From: an uncultured Verrucomicrobiota bacterium
Lineage (GTDB): Bacteria; Verrucomicrobiota; Verrucomicrobiia; Opitutales; Opitutaceae
Assembly (NCBI GenBank): GCA_903960515.1
Contig: CAJCBL010000302.1
Coordinates: 28,820 to 92,819, forward strand
DNA length: 64,000 nucleotides
Reading direction: 5' to 3'
The translations under genes were made by a program, and so were the position numbers. Shown piece after piece: positions 30,166 to 63,830 of the stretch. The stretch's first letter is position 1, and each line of letters begins with the position of its first letter. The notes below the pieces were generated by a model. That model saw only the letters and a list, made by a program, of their open reading frames with translations. It made no database searches and was not told where the DNA came from.

Positions 30166-30354
30166 ACCGTAACCAATCTATGGCAGCAGCGTGCTTGCAC
30201 GCGATGCCCGGCGTCGGCCCAGTGCCAGCACGCGCCCAGCCCCCGAGTCGCTCGCCCCTAGCCCCGCCTTCCGGTCTCCGCATTCCGAATTCCGCCTTCC
30301 GCACTCCGGTCTCCGCCCTTCCGCACTCCGCCTTCCGAATTCCGCATTTCCCCG
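30166..30354. repeat. Half REP plus polypyrimidine tract before pilT
   Basis: A single REP half with core GCGTGCTTGCACGCGAT lies at about 30189-30205. It is followed by a C/T-rich run of units such as CTTCCG and CATTCCGAATTCCGCC (30255-30352) that ends right before the pilT ATG. No gene is present. Confidence 0.65.
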
Positions 30355-31446: not shown

Positions 31447-31869
31447 GCGGCCGGCGGGGACGGGCCCTTCGATGCCCCTCCGCTGGGGGCGTTCGCTGGG
31501 CTGTAACCATCCACTTGCCACGGCTCTACTCGCTTGCGTTGGAAAGTGGCTTCGGTGTCCGGTCGTAGGAGCGCGCCTGCACGCGATCCGGGCTCTGAAT
31601 CGCGTGCACGCACGCTCCACTGAATGGTTACACCCAAGCCGTTACCAACCCGGCCCCCGGTGGGCCCGGAGCCTGTGGCCGTACCACCGAGCAACGCCGG
31701 CTGGGAACCGGCGCTCCGCCTTCCGCCCTCCGGTTTCCCGTCTCCGCCTTCCGCCTTCAGCCTTCAAGTTTCAGCCTACCGCCCTTCCTCGCCGCCGCGG
31801 CCCCCCCCGCCCCAATTCTGCTGGTCACCCCGCCACCCTGAGGGCTTCATCAGCGTACTCCATTCCCCG
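31447..31869. repeat. Intergenic region with REPIN and polypyrimidine tract
   Basis: A degenerate REPIN (two inverted REPs) lies at 31565-31619, followed by GAATGGTTACACC, a flank that recurs beside other copies. A C/T-rich run (CTTCCGCC, CCTTCAGCC units) fills about 31715-31795 just upstream of the protease gene. No gene is seen. Confidence 0.7.
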
Positions 31870-33468: not shown

Positions 33469-33772
33469 TCACCGGACCAATTCGGTGCCGCTAATGCCCC
33501 AGGCAGGACTGTCCGTAGTAGGAGCGTGCCTGCACGCGATAAGGCGCCATTCGCTTCCGCGATGAGCTGAATGCCGGATCCGTGTAGGAGCGTGCTTGCA
33601 CGCGATCTGCGCTCTGGATCGCGTGCCAGCACGCTCCTACGACAGAATGGTTACAGCCACGGCCTCGTCCCGCAGGCGCAGCCAAAGAGTGGAACAAGTG
33701 GAATAGCGTCCCCCAAACGCCGAACAACCGCCCATGGGATGCTCGACGCCTGGGGCCCGACCGACGGCAAAC
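33469..33772. repeat. REP and REPIN between protease and lipoprotein genes
   Basis: A single REP (33518-33540) is followed by a complete 57-bp REPIN (33584-33640). The REPIN has GTAGGAGCGTGCTTGCACGC on one side and its mirror on the other, separated by CTGCGCTCTGG. GAATGGTTACAGCC follows. The element sits between convergent genes. No coding sequence is supported. Confidence 0.85.
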
Positions 33773-38228: not shown

Positions 38229-38291
38229 GTAGCAGATGCGTGCTTGCACGCGATCTGCGCCCCTGATCACGCGCAAGGACGTTCCTGCTAC
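38229..38291. repeat. Degenerate REPIN between HAD gene and recQ
   Basis: GTAGCAGATGCGTGCTTGCA and its partial mirror ending GTTCCTGCTAC surround CTGCGCCCCTGAT. It matches the 57-63-bp REPIN family in this window and lies between convergent genes. Confidence 0.75.
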
Positions 38292-42840: not shown

Positions 42841-45303
42841 CTACTTGCGGATGGCGTAGGCGGCGTTCTTGGCGATCTCGTCCTGGGTCTTCAGGAAGGC
42901 CCCATTCACCTCGTCGTCGGTGAGCGTGCGATCCTCAGCCCGATACACCAGCGAGAAGGCGAAGCTCTTCTTCCCCTCGGGCAGCCCGGCCCCGCGGTAG
43001 ACGTCGAAGAGGCGCACGTTCTCCAGTACGAATTTCCCGGCGACGACTGCCGCTCGCGCAGCCTTCGCCACATCGCGGCGCACCGCCTCGGCGGCGGCGC
43101 CCTCATCGACCACCAGCGCCAGATCGCGCAGCGCGGGCGGGAATACACTGAAGGGCTTGAACTTCGCCCGGGGACGCGCCGTGGCTACGCGCTCCGGCAG
43201 CAGGTGCAGGATACCGGCCACCACCCCGCCGGTGATGCCGAGCTTGCGCAGCATCTCCAAGTTGAGGAGACCGCAGCGGGCCTCGAAGCCCTCGGTCAAC
43301 CGCCCGAACGTTGCCGAGTGCCCGGCCTGCCAGCCGGCGTTGGCGGCGGCCACGGCCTCCACTCGAAGGTTCTCCAACGATACGCCTGCATTGGCCGCCA
43401 CCACTGCGAGGTGACGCTTGGCAGTGTAGAAATCGCCCGGAGCACGGGCGAGCCACTGCGTATCCTCGGAGCCGGTGGCGATGACAAAGCCCACGGAGAG
43501 GCACTCGAAGATCTTGCCGTCCTGCTCGCGGAAGGTGCGCCCGCACTCGAAGAGCTTGGTGGCGCCGGTGCGGCGGTCCTGGTTGAGGCGCAGGTTGTCG
43601 AGCAAGCCGTTGATCAGCGAGGCTCGCAGATGCGAATACTCCTCGGTAAACGGGTTCGCCAGCGCCAAGGCTTGCGCGGCGGCCTCGGAAACCCAGGCGG
43701 CGGTCTCGGGCCCCGGGCGCTGCGAGTAATTCACGCACTCGTTGAAATGCTGGCCCACCAGATACGCGGTGGCCGCGCGGTTGAACTCGGTGATCGGATC
43801 GTCGGCCTCGGGCAAGGCCACAGCGACCACAGGGGCGGGAGGGATCTTCTCGCAGCCGTAGAGGCGCACAACCTCCTCGACCAGATCCACCGGGCGGTCG
43901 AGATCGCCGCGCCAGCTGGGGACCTTCACCGTCCAGAAGAAGCCAGGGGCCTCGGAGGAGAGGCGCTGCTCGATGTCGAGTTCGAGCGACTCGAGTATCC
44001 CACGCATGGCGTCGTCGGGGATGTCGTAGCCCGCACGGCGGCGGATGAACTCCGGGGTCACCTCGATGGCGGTCTCGGTGGCGGGCTCGCCGCCCACCTT
44101 GAAGAGCGGGCCCACGAGCTGGCCGCCGGCAGTCTCCAGAATGAGATCGAGCGCTCGGCGGGCTCCGTCCAATACGCCACAGGGATCGATGCCGCGCTCG
44201 AAACGGTAGGCGCTGTCCGAGGACAGGCCGAGCTTCTTCGAGGTCCAGCGGATGCCGGTGGGCCTGAAATAGGCCGACTCGAGCACGAGGTCGGTGGTGG
44301 TGGAGTCGACCTCGGCGCTGGCCCCGCCCATGATGCCGGCGATGACGAGGGGCTTCTCGGCGTCGGCGATCACGAGCATGCGGCCGTTGAGGCTGCGCTC
44401 CTTGTTGTCGAGCGTGACGAGCTTCTCGCCATCGCCCGCACGGCGGATCACCAGGCGGTGGCCGGCGATCTTGGCGGCGTCGAAGGCGTGCAGGGGCTGG
44501 CCGGTCTCGTGCAGGACAAAGTTGGTGACATCTACGACGTTGTTGATCGGACGCAGGCCCACGGCCTGGAGCGCCTCCTGCAACCACGCGGGGCTGGGAC
44601 CGATCTTCACTCCGGCGATGACGTGGGCGGTGTAGTGCGGGCAGTCCTCCTCGGCGGTGACTGCGACCGACTCCAACAACTGCGCCACGACGGGGGCGCC
44701 GACGGCGGGCGACTTGGCCCGAATCTCAGGATACCGTAGCGGCAGGCGGAACCACGCGGCGAGCTCGCGGGCCAGGCCGAGGTGGGAGAGGCAGTCGGGG
44801 CGGTTGGGCGTAATCTCCAGGTCGAATACAACATCGCCGGCGCCCAGCGCCTCATGTATGGGCGTGCCAAGCGGGAGGCTGGAGGCGAGCACGAGCAGGC
44901 CGCCGGTGTCCTCGCCCAGGCCGAGCTCGCGCGCCGAACACATCATGCCGTTGGACTCCACGCCCCGGATCTTGGACACCTTGATCTTGAAGTCGCCGGG
45001 CATCACCGCGCCGGGCAACGCGACGGGCACCCGGTGGCCGGCATCGCAGTTGGGCGCGCCGCAGACGATCTGCGTGGGGGCGCCGTCGGGGGCGATGCGC
45101 ACGGTGCACACGGAGAGCTTGTCGGCGCCGGGGTGCTTGTCGCGGGTGAGTATCTCACCCACCACCACGTTGGCCATCGGCGCCAGCCCGGTGCGGGCGA
45201 TGCCCTCGACCTCGAAACCGATCATGGTGAGGGCGTGGGCGATTTCCTCGACCGGGCGATCGAGGGCGAGATAGCGGCGGAGCCAATTGAGGGAGAGTTT
45301 CAT
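42841..45303 (-). CDS. pheT: Phenylalanine--tRNA ligase beta subunit
   Basis: MKLSLNWLRRYLALDRPVEE opens the subunit. An EMAP-type tRNA-binding domain (VVVGEILTRDKHPGADKLSV) is followed by B3/B4 (ITPNRPDCLSHLGLARELA), the B5 domain (with RRAGYDIPDDAMRGILESL), a synthetase-like core and the C-terminal anticodon-binding FDX-ACB domain (FSVFPPALRDLALVVDEGA). It has 820 residues, normal length. It charges tRNA-Phe as an alpha2-beta2 tetramer with PheS, which lies upstream on the other side of a foreign insert. Confidence 0.96.
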   Translation of the reverse strand: MKLSLNWLRRYLALDRPVEEIAHALTMIGFEVEGIARTGLAPMANVVVGEILTRDKHPGADKLSVCTVRIAPDGAPTQIVCGAPNCDAGHRVPVALPGAVMPGDFKIKVSKIRGVESNGMMCSARELGLGEDTGGLLVLASSLPLGTPIHEALGAGDVVFDLEITPNRPDCLSHLGLARELAAWFRLPLRYPEIRAKSPAVGAPVVAQLLESVAVTAEEDCPHYTAHVIAGVKIGPSPAWLQEALQAVGLRPINNVVDVTNFVLHETGQPLHAFDAAKIAGHRLVIRRAGDGEKLVTLDNKERSLNGRMLVIADAEKPLVIAGIMGGASAEVDSTTTDLVLESAYFRPTGIRWTSKKLGLSSDSAYRFERGIDPCGVLDGARRALDLILETAGGQLVGPLFKVGGEPATETAIEVTPEFIRRRAGYDIPDDAMRGILESLELDIEQRLSSEAPGFFWTVKVPSWRGDLDRPVDLVEEVVRLYGCEKIPPAPVVAVALPEADDPITEFNRAATAYLVGQHFNECVNYSQRPGPETAAWVSEAAAQALALANPFTEEYSHLRASLINGLLDNLRLNQDRRTGATKLFECGRTFREQDGKIFECLSVGFVIATGSEDTQWLARAPGDFYTAKRHLAVVAANAGVSLENLRVEAVAAANAGWQAGHSATFGRLTEGFEARCGLLNLEMLRKLGITGGVVAGILHLLPERVATARPRAKFKPFSVFPPALRDLALVVDEGAAAEAVRRDVAKAARAAVVAGKFVLENVRLFDVYRGAGLPEGKKSFAFSLVYRAEDRTLTDDEVNGAFLKTQDEIAKNAAYAIRK

Positions 45304-45312
45304 GACGGAAAA

Positions 45313-45790
45313 GTAGCGAGAAGCGAGTAGCGGGGAGCGGGGAGGTCGGAACTCGAAGCGTGGGGTGATCGGGCCTACCCCTGATTGCGCTCGAGTCCGT
45401 TGATGTAGCCTTGGAGCAGCCGGCTCACCTCCTCGGTGGCGGCTTGGAGTTCCTGAGTATCGGGATAGCCGAGATCATGGGCGAGTATCAGGTGGTAAAG
45501 CGTCTCGTCGGCGGAGGACTGGGCGAGGTTGTAGAAGCGAAGCTTGTCGGCCGTGGTGCGTGGTCGAAACCCCTCGACGACGTTCGCAGGAATACTGCCA
45601 GCGGAGCGGCGAACCTGTGAAGTGAGGCCATAGGTTTCGGTTTTCGGGAATGAGTCGGTGGCTCGATAGACGGCGAGGGTGAACGCGTGCGCCTTCTGCC
45701 AGACCAGTAGGTCGCGGAATGATTTGGATGGTCCGTCCATGCTCACTACTGGCCTTGGCCCCTCGCTACACACTACTCACCACTCGCTAC
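45313..45790. mobile_element. Four-helix-bundle element with inverted terminal repeats
   Basis: The left end GTAGCGAGAAGCGAGTAGCG (45313-45344) is matched on the opposite strand by the right end, which reads GTAGCGAGTGGTGAGTAGTG in reverse complement (about 45759-45790). Between them lies one gene, the four-helix-bundle protein. The element fills the pheS-pheT spacer almost exactly, ending 2-3 bp before the pheS stop codon. No transposase is present, so any mobility would need help in trans. Confidence 0.55.
45375..45740 (-). CDS. Four-helix-bundle protein (23S rRNA IVP family)
   Basis: The start is ATG 45740 (MDGPSKSFRDLLVWQKAHAF); the track start is 11 codons further up. FRDLLVWQKAH, YGLTSQVRRSAGSIPANVVE and the helical AQSSADETLYHLILAHDLGY are diagnostic of the family first seen as ORFs in intervening sequences of 23S rRNA. 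It has 121 residues. The family often occurs as stand-alone single genes, and its function is not established. Here it splits pheS and pheT and is enclosed by inverted repeats. Confidence 0.85.
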   Translation of the reverse strand: MDGPSKSFRDLLVWQKAHAFTLAVYRATDSFPKTETYGLTSQVRRSAGSIPANVVEGFRPRTTADKLRFYNLAQSSADETLYHLILAHDLGYPDTQELQAATEEVSRLLQGYINGLERNQG

Positions 45791-45792
45791 TG

Positions 45793-46833
45793 CTAGGCAA
45801 ACTGCCGCAGGAAGCGCGCGTCGTTCTGGTAGAAGTAGCGGATGTCGTCCACCCCGTAGAGCATCATGGCGATGCGCTCGATGCCCAGACCGAAGGCGTA
45901 GCCAGTCCACTCTTTGGAGTCGTAGCCCACGGTCTCGAACACGGCCGGGTCGACCATGCCGCAGCCCATGATCTCGATCCACTCCTTGCCCACCTTGCCC
46001 AGATGCTTGGCGGAGAGGTCGACCTCGAAGCTGGGCTCGGTGTAGCCGAAATAGTGGGGGCGGAAGCGGGTCTTCACGTCCTTGCCGAGCAGAGACTGGA
46101 AGAGGTAGTCGAGCATCGCCTTGAGGTCCTTCACGGTGACGTTGCGGTCCACGTAGAGCCCCTCGAGCTGGTGGAAGTTGGCGCTGTGGGTGGCGTCTAC
46201 AGTATCGCGGCGAAACACACGGCCGGGGGAGATGATGCGGATCGGCGGCGGCTGCTTGAGCATCGTGCGGATCTGCACCGAGGAGGTGTGGGTGCGCAGC
46301 AGGTAGCGCTCCTTGGTGCGTTGGGAAACGTTGGCTACAAGCGCGTTCTCCTGCAGGTAAAAAGTATCCTGAAGATCGCGCGCTGGGTGGTCGGGCGGCG
46401 TGTTCAGCGCGTCGAAGCAAAACCACTCCGTCTCGACCTCAGGGCCCTCGACCACGGCGAAGCCGGCCTTGCGGAAGATGCGGCACAGCTCCTCGCGCAC
46501 GAGTGTGAGCGGATGGGTGGCGCCGGGGCCGGAGTCGGGCGAGGGCAGAGTGGGGTCGATGGCCGGCCCGAGCTGGGCGGCTATCTCAGCCTGTTCGATA
46601 CGCACGAGGGCGGCGTCGAGCAGGGGCTGGAGCTGGCCCTTGGCCTCGTTGATGAGCTTGCCCAGGATGGGCTTCTGCTCCTTGGGGGCGGCACCGAGCT
46701 GCTTCATCAGCGCGGTGAGCTCGCCGTTGGGGCCGACATAGCGGGCCTTGGCGGCCTCAAATTCGGGGCGGGCGCGGAGTGCGGCCAGTTCACCGCGGGC
46801 TTTCTCTACGAGGGCTTGGAGGGCGGCTTGCAT
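45793..46833 (-). CDS. pheS: Phenylalanine--tRNA ligase alpha subunit
   Basis: The N-terminal coiled-coil tRNA-binding part (MQAALQALVEKARGELAAL) is followed by the class II catalytic core: motif 2 LLRTHTSSVQIRTM with SPGRVFRRDTVDATHSANFH, and motif 3 GYAFGLGIERIAMMLYGVDD. It has 346 residues, normal length. It catalyses Phe activation together with PheT. It lies about 0.5 kb downstream of the rplT terminator, so it probably has its own promoter. Confidence 0.96.
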   Translation of the reverse strand: MQAALQALVEKARGELAALRARPEFEAAKARYVGPNGELTALMKQLGAAPKEQKPILGKLINEAKGQLQPLLDAALVRIEQAEIAAQLGPAIDPTLPSPDSGPGATHPLTLVREELCRIFRKAGFAVVEGPEVETEWFCFDALNTPPDHPARDLQDTFYLQENALVANVSQRTKERYLLRTHTSSVQIRTMLKQPPPIRIISPGRVFRRDTVDATHSANFHQLEGLYVDRNVTVKDLKAMLDYLFQSLLGKDVKTRFRPHYFGYTEPSFEVDLSAKHLGKVGKEWIEIMGCGMVDPAVFETVGYDSKEWTGYAFGLGIERIAMMLYGVDDIRYFYQNDARFLRQFA

Positions 46834-47334: not shown

Positions 47335-47712
47335 TTAGACCTTCGCGGCCGACTTGGTCACGAGGGCGGCGCGGACCTGCGCAACGATGGCGCCGAAAGC
47401 AGCCTCATCGCGGATGGCGATGTCGGAAAGGACCTTGCGGTCGAGCCCGATATTGGCGGCCTTGAGGCCTTCGATGAAGCGGCTGTAGCTGATGCCGGCG
47501 CTGCGGCAGGCTGCGTTCAGACGCACGATCCAAAGCCCGCGGGCGTTGGACTTCTTCTTCTTGCGATCCCGGTAGGCATACTGGAGCGCATGATCGAGCG
47601 CTTCGTTGGCGTACCGGTAGAGCTTGGACTTGTTTCCGAAGTAGCCCCTGGCTTGCTTCAGAACCTTTTTCCGCCGTTTGCGGGAGGCGGGACCGTTTGT
47701 GACACGAGGCAT
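47335..47712 (-). CDS. rplT: Large ribosomal subunit protein L20
   Basis: RKRRKKVLKQARGYFGNKSK, LYRYANEALDHALQYAYRDR and SYSRFIEGLKAANIGLDRKV are the L20 signature. L20 is needed early in 50S assembly and in several bacteria represses its own operon. It has 125 residues, normal length. It follows rpmI by about 80 bp and ends in a strong terminator. Confidence 0.97.
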   Translation of the reverse strand: MPRVTNGPASRKRRKKVLKQARGYFGNKSKLYRYANEALDHALQYAYRDRKKKKSNARGLWIVRLNAACRSAGISYSRFIEGLKAANIGLDRKVLSDIAIRDEAAFGAIVAQVRAALVTKSAAKV

Positions 47713-47989: not shown

Positions 47990-48728
47990 GGTGAGTTGGG
48001 CAGAAAGAGGACCGCCCCGGTCGAACGCAAGGGAGAATTTTCGGCTCATCGTTGGGCGCGCCGCCGATTTCGGCACGCCAGCGCCGGAACGAGTGCCGGA
48101 TGCTATCGTCCGCGGCCGCGGATGATAGCGTCCGGCGCGCTGCAGCGTTGCTCGCCACCGATCTCCAACGACAACACTCCCCCATTCGGGCATAGACCCA
48201 GGGTCCGCCCCCTCCGTCGGGGCCCTGCGCACTAAAACCTCCGGATGCTATCGTCCGCGGCCGCGGACGATAACGTCCGGAACGCGACATCGCGGCCCGC
48301 CACCACGCCCTAGCGGCAACGCTCCCCCGCTCGGGGGCCAGCCCCAATTCGCCCCCCCAGGGATTCTGCCCCCCCGAACCTCCGGATGCTATCGTCCGCG
48401 GCCGCGGACGATAGCGTCCGGAACCGGGCGCCGGCCTGGACCGACTACCAGCCCAACAGGGCCATGATAGCGACTCCACAGGACCAGCACACTGGCTGCA
48501 CTCGCCCGCCCGCGCACCGCTGGACCGCCGCCCCTCGGCCGGACGCCCCGCAAAAACGGGGTGCCCGTATCGCGGGGCGCGATGCGAACTCGCCGCCAGC
48601 GATCTTGCGCCACGCGTCGCAGACGGTCCACCACATGTTTGGGGTATTCACACATTGAAACAACCGCCCCATTGCCCGCGTTTGCGCTCGCCGCCCGCCC
48701 TCCCCGGCCCGACAACGCCCCGCCGCCC
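47990..48728. repeat. Divergent region with three family-B palindromes
   Basis: Copies of the CCGGATGCTATCGT palindrome lie at 48096-48135, 48241-48280 and 48382-48421, spaced 145 and 141 bp. Each is followed by a less conserved tract with CTCCCCC..CGGGG. They sit between rpmI (minus) and the MFS gene (plus), where both promoters must lie. No gene or RNA was recognised. Confidence 0.85.
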
Positions 48729-55154: not shown

Positions 55155-55664
55155 GATTGCAGTGTCCTAACCTCCACCACGCGCGGCGTCCAGCCCGGCA
55201 GTGGACCGCGTTTTCCAGGATTCCCGTTCAGCCCTGGCCGGTCGGTAGGATCTGACGGTTCACCTCGATTCCTGCCCCGCTTCGCCCACCGATCCCGCCC
55301 CCCGACATCCGCCTTCCGCATTCGTCTTTCCGCCCTCCGACATCAGCCTTCAGCCCTCATCTTTCCGCCCTCCGACATCAGCCTTCAGCCCTCATCTTTC
55401 CGCCCTCCGCCTTCTTCACTCCGTCTCCCTCCCTCGGACTCCCGCCCTCCGCCTCCTCCCTCGGCCTTCTGCCCGCCAGCCTTCCGCCTTCAGCCTTCAG
55501 CCCTCCGCACTCCCCCAGCCCTCTGCCTTCCTCCTTCAGCCATCAGCCTTCCGCCTTCAGCCTTCCGCCTTCAGCCTTCTCCCTTAGGCCTCCGTATTCC
55601 GGCTTCCCATCCGCCCGCTCATCCTTCTCAATTCCCGCTTCAGCCAACCCCAACTTTCTCCTCG
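55155..55664. repeat. Polypyrimidine repeat tract upstream of etfB
   Basis: From about 55315 to 55620 the plus strand is almost purely C/T with units such as CTTTCCGCC, CATCAGCC and CCTTCAGCC. A ~34-bp unit starting CATCTTTCCGCCCTCCGACA is duplicated in tandem near 55340-55400. It ends about 50 bp before the etfB start. The same type of tract precedes pilT and the protease gene. Confidence 0.8.
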
Positions 55665-58136: not shown

Positions 58137-58498
58137 GCGAAGGAATTGTTGCGGCTAAGCCTTAACCATTCGGTCGAGAGCCCAGCGCAGAGTGCCGAGA
58201 GCCTGATCACCGAGCCAGCCCTCGGAATCAGGCCCGCTTCTGAGCCGATCACTGGTGGTTCGCTCTCGCTACTCGACTCGGGGCCGCATCGTTACGGCTC
58301 AGGCAAAAGGCGGGATTAAAACTCTCGATTGGCTCAAGCGCGGTTTTGCGGGGCCGATAGGAGCAGCAGTCGGAAACATTGCTCCCCCTGCCTTCTCCAA
58401 GACCCACTGCCAGCGCACCACTCGCTTCATCCACTTAGCCGCAACCATGCAATCGTACCGCTTTGCGCTCTGGCAGTGCACGACCTCCGGTGTCCGCC

Positions 58499-58555
58499 GT
58501 AGGAGCGTGCGTGCACGCGAACTGCGCTCTGAATCGCGTGCCAGCACCCTTCTAC
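58499..58555. repeat. REPIN copy (extended form)
   Basis: GTAGGAGCGTGCGTGCACGC and its mirror enclose CTGCGCTCTGAAT. It shares the GTGTCCGCC flank and the TGAATCGTTACACC tail with other copies. Confidence 0.85.
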
Positions 58556-58672
58556 GCCTGAATCGTTACACCTTAGTGACCCACCTTCCCGACCGTTGCC
58601 CCGCAGATTTCACCTGAGCTTGGGGCAAAGATCCCGCAGTTCCCAAATTCCACGCCCTGCATAGTCGTTACC

Positions 58673-60848: not shown

Positions 60849-61361
60849 CAGGTAGCTTGGATGCTTGGCGATGTTCCACGTCGCGTTCATAATGAGACTA
60901 ATGCCGATCCTATGCCGGAGCGTGCTTGCAGGCGCTAGGGCCTCACCTTAACCCGCCCCATTTATTCGCGCCGCGTTACCCGCGTACAGTGCCCGAACTT
61001 GTCCGCCATAGACGGAGCGTGCTTGCACGCGATGTGCACACTAAATCGCGTCCAAGCACGCTCCCACAACTGCATGGTCATGGCTTGCGAGCGAACAGGA
61101 ATCTAGGGTAGCCGCAAATTGTAACCATCCCTGAATGGCCCCGTCCGGTGCCCCCGCCAGCAGTGGCCGTTTCTTATCGCAACTTTTCCCCTTATTTTCC
61201 TCCATCAGCGGCCGAAGCATAGGACCCCCACGGTAACCATCCCCACGCACTCGCCGCATTTGAAACGCTTCAGTTCGGACTCACCGCCACGCCCGCGCAT
61301 GTCAGTCGGTCCATTACCGACCGATTAGTGAAAGAGATCAACCCAGCTACTATCGACACCT
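60849..61361. repeat. Repeat-bearing gap before the outer-membrane protein
   Basis: A decayed cassette (60881-60950) with REP core GAGCGTGCTTGCAGGCG and a REPIN at 61011-61067 (GGAGCGTGCTTGCACGCG and mirror) are present. The remaining 300 bp up to the next gene show no gene, RNA or clear promoter. Confidence 0.7.
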
Positions 61362-63168: not shown

Positions 63169-63225
63169 GTAGGAGCGTGCTTGCACGCGATTCAGAGCGC
63201 AGATCGCGTGCAAGCACGCTCCTAC
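63169..63225. repeat. Complete REPIN, inverted orientation
   Basis: GTAGGAGCGTGCTTGCACGC and its exact mirror enclose ATTCAGAGCGCAGAT, the reverse complement of the loop in other copies. The following 75 bp (GGCGGACACCGGAGTTCGTG and on) is the inverse of the flank that precedes the copies at 58082 and 58499, so the whole element of about 130 bp is inverted here. Confidence 0.9.
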
Positions 63226-63439: not shown

Positions 63440-63830
63440 TCGCTCCCGCTATTTCAGCCTTCAGCATTCAGCCTTCTCCGTGCCCTCCTCCGCCTCTGTG
63501 CCCTCTGTGACCGGTTCGAAATCTTTGTGCCCTCTGTGACCGGTTCGAGTTCCTTGTGCGCTCTGTGTTCCTTGCGGTTAATATGGTCAACCCTACTGCA
63601 AGCCTGTAGCCATGTATAGATTCCATGCAGCCTCGCGCAAAAACGCCGCAATATCTCAGGTTCAGCGTTCAGCCTTCAGCATTCAGGGTTCCGCCTTCTC
63701 TGTGCCCTCCTCCGCCTCTGTGTTCTCTGTGACCGGTTCGGGTTCCTTGTGCCCTCTGTGACCGGGTCGGGCTCCTTGGGCCCTCTGTTCCCGGTTCGAA
63801 TTCTTTGTGTTCTATGCGTTCATTGCTGTA
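63440..63830. repeat. CTCTGTG and TTCAGC low-complexity repeats
   Basis: Two blocks of CCTTCAGC-type units (63450-63475, 63660-63695) alternate with CCTCTGTGACCGGTTCG units repeated several times (63490-63560 and 63700-63800). There is no coding potential. The rest of the window up to 64000 shows no gene. Confidence 0.8.

Follow-up and report, generated by a model that had tools for sequence, protein, structure and literature searches.

The window, a 64,000-nucleotide stretch of contig C302 of a 5.5-Mb draft genome (G000), carries pheS and pheT separated by a spacer of 489 bp, in which sequence and ORF reading place a single open reading frame (Table 1). The frame encodes a four-helix-bundle (4HB) protein and is also open from an alternative GTG start at 45773. 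Around it lie two inward-facing arms, both of about 31 nt, complementary but imperfect, and made of GTAGCGA-type heptads; the arm on the pheT side has about four GTAGCGR heptads and coincides with a period-7 array (C302:74130-74163). The pheS stop codon is TAG here and TGA in most relatives. An earlier note on this DNA had described imperfect inverted repeats flanking one gene that fills the pheS-pheT spacer. This description stands; what escaped it is the tandem-heptad unit of the arms, with which the locus has the anatomy considered below, tandem-heptad inverted arms around a 4HB gene.

Table 1. Features of the window (strands and positions as in the window) and arm repeats of 4HB genes in the same genome.
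Feature	Position or locus	Strand	Details
pheT	42841..45303	-	host gene, operon-downstream; outside element
Inverted arm, 3' of 4HB gene	45312..45342	+ (purine-rich X strand)	AGTAGCGAGAAGCGAGTAGCGGGGAGCGGGG
S23/23S_rRNA_IVP four-helix-bundle (4HB) gene	45375..45740	-	121 aa
Inverted arm, 5' of 4HB gene	45761..45791	- (X strand)	AGTAGCGAGTGGTGAGTAGTGTGTAGCGAGG; pairs with partner in predicted RNA fold
pheS stop TAG	45793..45795	-	at element boundary
pheS	45793..46833	-	host gene, operon-upstream; outside element
Arm repeats GTAGCGA (window), GGTTGAA, GATGGGA	window genome		flank reading
Arm repeat GGCTGAA	4HB gene between atpA and atpG, window genome		flank reading
Arm repeat AAGTGAC	4HB gene between trpB and yicC, window genome		flank reading
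Arm repeat GGGAATGA (8-mer)	another 4HB gene, window genome		flank reading
Arm repeat GGGCAGT	L009 (G000:C17:27228-29841)		4HB gene within pglX-like frame
Period-7 arrays, TCCGCCT/TTCAGCC type	30269-30348, 31714-31773, 55293-55414, 55478-55585, 63659-63698		long
REP-like palindromes	31548-31640, 33584-33640, 38229-38291, 58493-58561, 61014-61064, 63169-63225		GTAGGAGCGTGCTTGCACGCGAT...
Perfect or near-perfect palindromes	48090-48286, 48381-48422		TCCGGATGCTATCGTCCGCGGCCGCGGACGATAGCATCCGGA type; near 47.3-48.5 kb

The gene product was assigned by profile search to the protein family of 23S rRNA intervening sequences (IVSs), as the earlier note had recognized, with 113 bits against PF05635 (S23/23S_rRNA_IVP; cut-off 33.8) and 115 bits against TIGR02436, "four helix bundle protein" (cut-off 24). 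Structures of S23/IVP proteins have been solved since 2006, their function being unassigned. The AF2 model of the window protein has four helices (pLDDT 95.1), and its best PDB matches are 2GSC (Xcc0516; TM 0.89) and 2RLD (BT_0352; TM 0.88), both five-chain toroids; Xcc0516 has been described as a pentamer (PMC4990558). The next structural matches were Avd (4DWL) and the DGR RNP (8UB7), at TM 0.75-0.78 with weak E-values. By analogy with these structures, the window protein may be an Avd-like pentamer.

Judged alone, the window arm pair exceeds chance only modestly: with a score of 27 it falls between the 95th (26) and 99th (33) percentiles for arms swapped between loci, and although the predicted RNA fold pairs the arms, its z was -1.28, with 12 of 100 shuffles folding equally well. 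The window pair being marginal alone, the case for the element rests on class statistics.

Seven genes of the window genome exceeded the PF05635 cut-off, and all seven are flanked by inverted low-complexity arms. Other copies of the ends with the same gene, which the earlier note had suggested looking for, therefore exist as clear gene copies with inverted arms, but the repeat sequence differs in each. Recent amplification of one element within the genome was rejected as their origin because the other six clear proteins are 23-35% identical to the window protein. Elsewhere in the genome, we observed a GGGCAGT-armed element (L009) within an 871-aa frame whose translation, read by eye, is that of a PglX-like methyltransferase; the frame is open across the element, with the 4HB gene on the same strand in another frame, and this is possibly an in-frame insertion which the PglX-like protein tolerates.

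Across 36 loci of the family, the median arm score was 35.5 with an arm's own partner and 18 with mismatched partners, and the own partner was the best-scoring arm at 23 of them. Period 7 or 14 accounted for 46 of 49 significant arm periodicities at the family loci; control flanks 750-900 bp away gave two significant periods, neither of them 7. We extended the comparison to 80 loci from a 4HB-profile scan of public genomes, covering about 15 phyla as assigned by record title, and the same anatomy recurred throughout: 104 of 110 significant arm periodicities were 7 or 14, the typical arm has 4-5 heptads (28-36 nt), and elements measure about 420-500 bp. The heptad sequences vary (the commonest in the 80-locus set is TCAGCNN), and 75% of arms contain the dinucleotide AG, a share that falls to 39% (maximum 49%) on permutation of the heptad positions. 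Protein similarity tracks heptad similarity (Mantel r 0.32, p 0.002), and the heptad sequence is particular to each element lineage. The 4HB gene is co-oriented with both neighbors in 35 of 39 co-directional settings, with 4 against. The element encodes the single 4HB gene and no transposase, RT, nuclease or recombinase. Stem folding was stronger in one of the loci, L285 (z -3.88), than at the window. We also considered the heptads as a source of stop codons, since a repeat of period 7 brings one into each of the three frames. All-frame stops were found in 39% of arms in sense, 37% in antisense and 24% when permuted; the similar values in sense and antisense imply no strand-specific role, and the idea was rejected.

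Comparison of relatives revealed turnover at operon junctions. At pheS-pheT the 4HB element is present in the window genome, G011, G028, G023 and G058, a GxxExxY (PF13366) element takes its place in G001, G005, G017 and G012, eight family genomes have spacers of 0-10 bp, and several others have gene-less inverted repeats. Two genomes of the same genus as the window genome differ from it: G001 has the GxxExxY element just mentioned, and G002 a 38-bp remnant. At atpA-atpG, the 4HB element of the window genome is matched by a gene-less GTAGCGA repeat in G001 and by spacers of 39-49 bp in G030 and G011, and gyrB-gyrA of the window genome has a GTAGCGA repeat without a gene. An orthologous 4HB gene lies at trpB-yicC in the window genome and G001, with a different 4HB gene and different arms in G002, and the 4HB element at rfbB-rfbA in the window genome differs from the 4HB element of G002 and G028. 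Close relatives of the window protein that share its arm type are found in other genera at other junctions: with GTAGCGA arms at gyrB-gyrA in G018 (L063), and at gatA-gatB in G011 (L070). Because the pheS-pheT copies are common to five genera, the pattern there may partly reflect an old insertion followed by loss. Empty sites are thus present in close relatives, where the earlier note had proposed to seek them; since these relatives belong to other species, no duplication can be fixed at their junctions, and strain-level junctions come from plasmid members only, in cyanobacteria.

Two further observations concern sites of this kind. In the gapA-pgk spacer of the window genome (L003, contig C90), GGCAGAA and GTAGCGA heptad types stand side by side, as though an element had inserted next to or within another one. 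The GxxExxY genes at L020, L027, L032 and L181 (all pheS-pheT) and at L077-L106 likewise have an inverted arm on either side, made of short direct repeats of the CACGGAGNN/CACAGAGNN type with a spacing of about 9-10 nt. These loci apparently form a second, independent single-gene element class at the same sites. They share with the 4HB elements a single gene, inverted direct-repeat arms and the pheS-pheT site, but their protein is nuclease-like (PDDEXK-like) and their arms are mostly of the CACGGAG type with 9-10-nt spacing, without a dominant period of 7.

Plasmids of Nostocales provided near-identical filled and empty insertion sites, with flank identity up to 97.6%. At the first site the empty sequence is AAAAAGTAATTAACAAATA and the filled one AAAAAGTAA[TAAATCAG...4HB...TTCTTCTTT]GTAATTAACAAATA (element in brackets), with flanks 97.6% identical and a 4-bp duplication (GTAA). 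At the second, seen between pNsp_a and pNsp_c of one strain and in relatives, GGTTCTAGGTTATG is empty and GGTTCTA[AATCAGG...TTCTGGA]TTCTAGTTATG filled, with a duplication of 3-5 bp (TTC/TTCTA). The third site is empty as GAGGTAATGGGATTTG and filled as GAGGTAATG[TTAGGGG...GTGAATT]ATGGGATTTG; it shows a 3-bp duplication (ATG), and the overlapping stop and start codons of the host genes are both kept. The fourth is a nested insertion, in which a gene-less heptad element lies in the 4HB gene of another element (L300) with a duplication of 0-1 bp. A fifth plasmid site has the 4HB element in L284 and L283, a gene-less inverted repeat in L298 and neither in L297 and L299; here filled and empty spacers differ beyond the insertion, and the junction is undefinable. 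The target duplications that the earlier note had proposed to look for are therefore found, at 3-5 bp in three plasmid sites, but their length is not constant, ranging from 0 to 5 bp over the four dissected sites. One 418-bp element, 78-82% identical between copies, occurs in three unrelated contexts (L285, L286 and L292), which places the ends of this element at its arms. The near-identical L285 and L296 differ in one arm by exactly two heptads (14 nt).

The mobility guessed in the earlier note is borne out by these comparisons: the gene is absent here from most relatives, has seven clear copies in its genome, and belongs to a class with empty sites on plasmids. It is neither present at this locus in all relatives nor alone in its genome. 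The label "non-autonomous" is less apt for the gene-bearing form, as the protein co-varies with the arms and may itself be the mobility factor; gene-less derivatives are better candidates for that label.

Among known systems the closest is the 23S rRNA IVS. IVSs of 23S rRNA with an S23p ORF are known from Coxiella and Leptospira (Ralph and McClelland 1993; PMC4990558). The Coxiella IVS has a 28-bp terminal stem, is excised by RNase III and encodes S23p, and its 5' part has GACAGAT tandem heptamers upstream of the ORF in a copy number that varies between strains (PMC4990558). Such IVSs, described as selfish and suspected to be mobile, have in common with the heptad-armed element the PF05635 protein, the terminal stem, the size (428-444 nt in Coxiella) and the heptamers; the window copy and most others, in contrast, lie in protein-operon junctions and not in rRNA. 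Complementary terminal arms surround the S23p ORF at the window too, with a fold z of only -1.28, between pheS and pheT instead of inside a 23S rRNA gene. By this likeness, 23S rRNA IVSs look like the heptad-armed element sitting in rRNA, which would give the fragmentation of 23S rRNA by IVSs a source. Coxiella S23p is reported to be probably unexpressed in vivo (PMC4990558), which counts against the explanation proposed below. The IVS literature that we found does not recognize heptads as a general arm architecture and reports no empty sites outside rRNA. Our literature search, which covered few subscription papers, yielded no paper that joins heptad repeats to the S23/4HB gene or describes the element outside rRNA; the heptad-armed element may thus be new.

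Like REPIN/RAYT and MITE-like elements (PMC3116915), the heptad-armed element is short, inverted-repeat, intergenic, multi-copy, mobile DNA with gene-less copies apparently moved in trans. It differs from REPIN/RAYT in its arbitrary-sequence tandem-heptad arms and its encoded protein, and in that Y1/RAYT is sometimes absent. Comparison with classical IS and MITE elements identified no transposase-bearing partner with shared ends. Avd of DGRs (4DWL, 8UB7; PMC10053308) shares the four-helix-bundle fold and has similar oligomeric relatives, and its partner role in the DGR RNP serves as a model for the putative function of the 4HB protein; the window gene has no adjacent RT, template or variable repeat. 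The arms provide a specific candidate ligand for the function-less S23/IVP proteins. 23S_rRNA_IVP genes occur in cas operons (PMC3936711), and insertion may simply explain their presence there. We observed a GCTAAAA-armed 4HB element of this kind between cas6 and cas4 on the Pseudanabaena galeata plasmid pPg_01 (L290).

We conclude, with a probability of roughly 0.7, that the pheS-pheT gene is one copy of a widespread minimal mobile element whose mobile unit would be a pentamer-heptad nucleoprotein. Its heptads would pair in the transcript of the operon, or in one strand of DNA, to form a stem that has the ORF in its loop. Based on the Avd-like fold and on arms that pair around the ORF, we propose that the candidate ligand of the pentamer is the set of heptads in its own element, with about one subunit per 7 nt and AG as the core. 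Binding of this kind would account for a period that stays fixed while the sequence is free, for arms close to five heptads long and for the co-variation of protein and arms. The complex would then be copied by host enzymes into gene junctions, and gene-less elements with the same heptads would move in trans. As with 23S rRNA IVSs, RNase III probably cuts the stem; since insertion at stop/start junctions spares both genes, and given such cutting, copies would be nearly neutral.

How the host would move the element admits other answers. Retrotransposition in trans, in which a host RT would copy the hairpin RNA with its bound S23/Avd-like protein and insert it, fits the resemblance of the protein to Avd and the DGR RNP (where Avd assists the DGR RT), a gene that runs in the direction of host transcription at 35 of 39 co-directional settings, the short variable duplications and the absence of a DNA transposase from the element. 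We nevertheless consider it unlikely, as 18 family genomes with 5-13 4HB copies have no RVT_1 match, and the presence of an RT shows no association with that of 4HB genes (Fisher p 0.74, Spearman 0.06); the sole RVT_1 match of the window genome is on C332, not C302. RT-free genomes that keep 5-13 copies make a resident RT unnecessary for retention, while past or divergent RTs could have acted.

Alternatively, a Y1/RAYT-type transposase acting in trans could move the element as a DNA hairpin, in the manner of REPINs and IS200/IS605 derivatives. This route draws on a correlation of 4HB copy number with Y1_Tnp count (Spearman 0.52, p 2e-5), on 17 Y1_Tnp matches in the window genome, and on arms that start with GTAG, similar to the feet of REPs, in a genome that has GTAGGAGCGTGC REP-like repeats. 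General mobile-element load confounds this correlation, since GxxExxY correlates too (0.61), and five genomes with 1-5 4HB genes have zero Y1 matches, including G018, which is 97% complete and has 5 copies. The arms of other lineages are also unrelated in sequence and lack GTAG, and we regard this route as quite doubtful.

A vertically inherited regulatory or processing cassette of the operon, with an RNase III-cut stem and a modulating protein, would account for co-oriented 4HB genes between the operon genes in the five genomes with the element at pheS-pheT, and a homologous stem in 23S rRNA is cut by RNase III (PMC4990558). It is improbable, because most relatives, two of the same genus among them, lack the cassette or have unrelated elements in its place, and the same element type occurs at other operons; near-identical plasmids, some bearing the element and some lacking it, provide the empty sites that contradict it as a sole explanation. 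Slippage, with satellite-like heptads gathering in intergenic gaps around an unrelated passenger gene, agrees with whole-unit heptad differences between near-identical copies (L285 and L296; Coxiella strains, PMC4990558) and with numerous solo arrays, and is very improbable. Alone, it would not be expected to give unrelated arm sequences of about 15 phyla a common period of 7, to set them as matched inverted pairs about a single protein family, to couple protein with heptad sequence or to insert gene and arms as one unit, and the far flanks gave no period 7.

The mobile-element reading bears on a wider class of repeats. Xanthomonas has GGGAATC and Nostoc GGGGA(T/C)T heptamers, those of Xanthomonas often in inverted pairs (PMC4692102), Beggiatoaceae have intergenic TAACTGA heptamers (PMC4679880), and in 7,006 prokaryotic genomes tandem heptamers are the most abundant intergenic periodic repeats, with no clear functional clue (PMC6344855). 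Where these papers suggest a role, it is in quadruplexes, translation or phase variation, and the passages found contain no link of heptamers to the S23/4HB gene. In one gammaproteobacterial genome, we re-observed gene-less inverted GGGAATC pairs at 3 of 4 arrays. Within 361 kb of the window genome, 7 is the commonest tandem period (9 of 18 arrays), and one of the nine period-7 arrays passes a strict threshold for an inverted partner, which indicates that many arrays are solo, extended or decayed. Six of 14 GTAGCGA arrays examined have an inward partner. Heptad arrays are not all intact elements, and inverted repeats in the 361 kb are mostly other palindromes (REP-like, fixed). Many unexplained 7-base repeats of bacteria probably derive from element arms, and the period-7 arrays found here as standard ends of a mobile element bear on the heptamer excess (PMC6344855). 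More tentatively, and at somewhat less than even odds, we suggest a hitherto unrecognized, bacteria-wide class of transposable element without a recombinase, which would move as a complex of a pentameric 4HB protein with its own heptad hairpin. IVSs would be one niche of this class, and its arms and gene-less derivatives would have given rise to the 7-nt tandem repeat excess in prokaryotic intergenic DNA.

Other repeats were seen in the window (Table 1). The TCCGCCT/TTCAGCC arrays have no strict close inverted partner and may be arms that have decayed or expanded, or else heptad loci of a different kind. Given the 17 Y1_Tnp matches in the genome, the REP-like palindromes probably belong to a RAYT/REP system. 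The TCCGGATGCTATCGTCCGCGGCCGCGGACGATAGCATCCGGA-type palindromes lie upstream of an ORF at 47335-47712, and are repeated elsewhere on C302.
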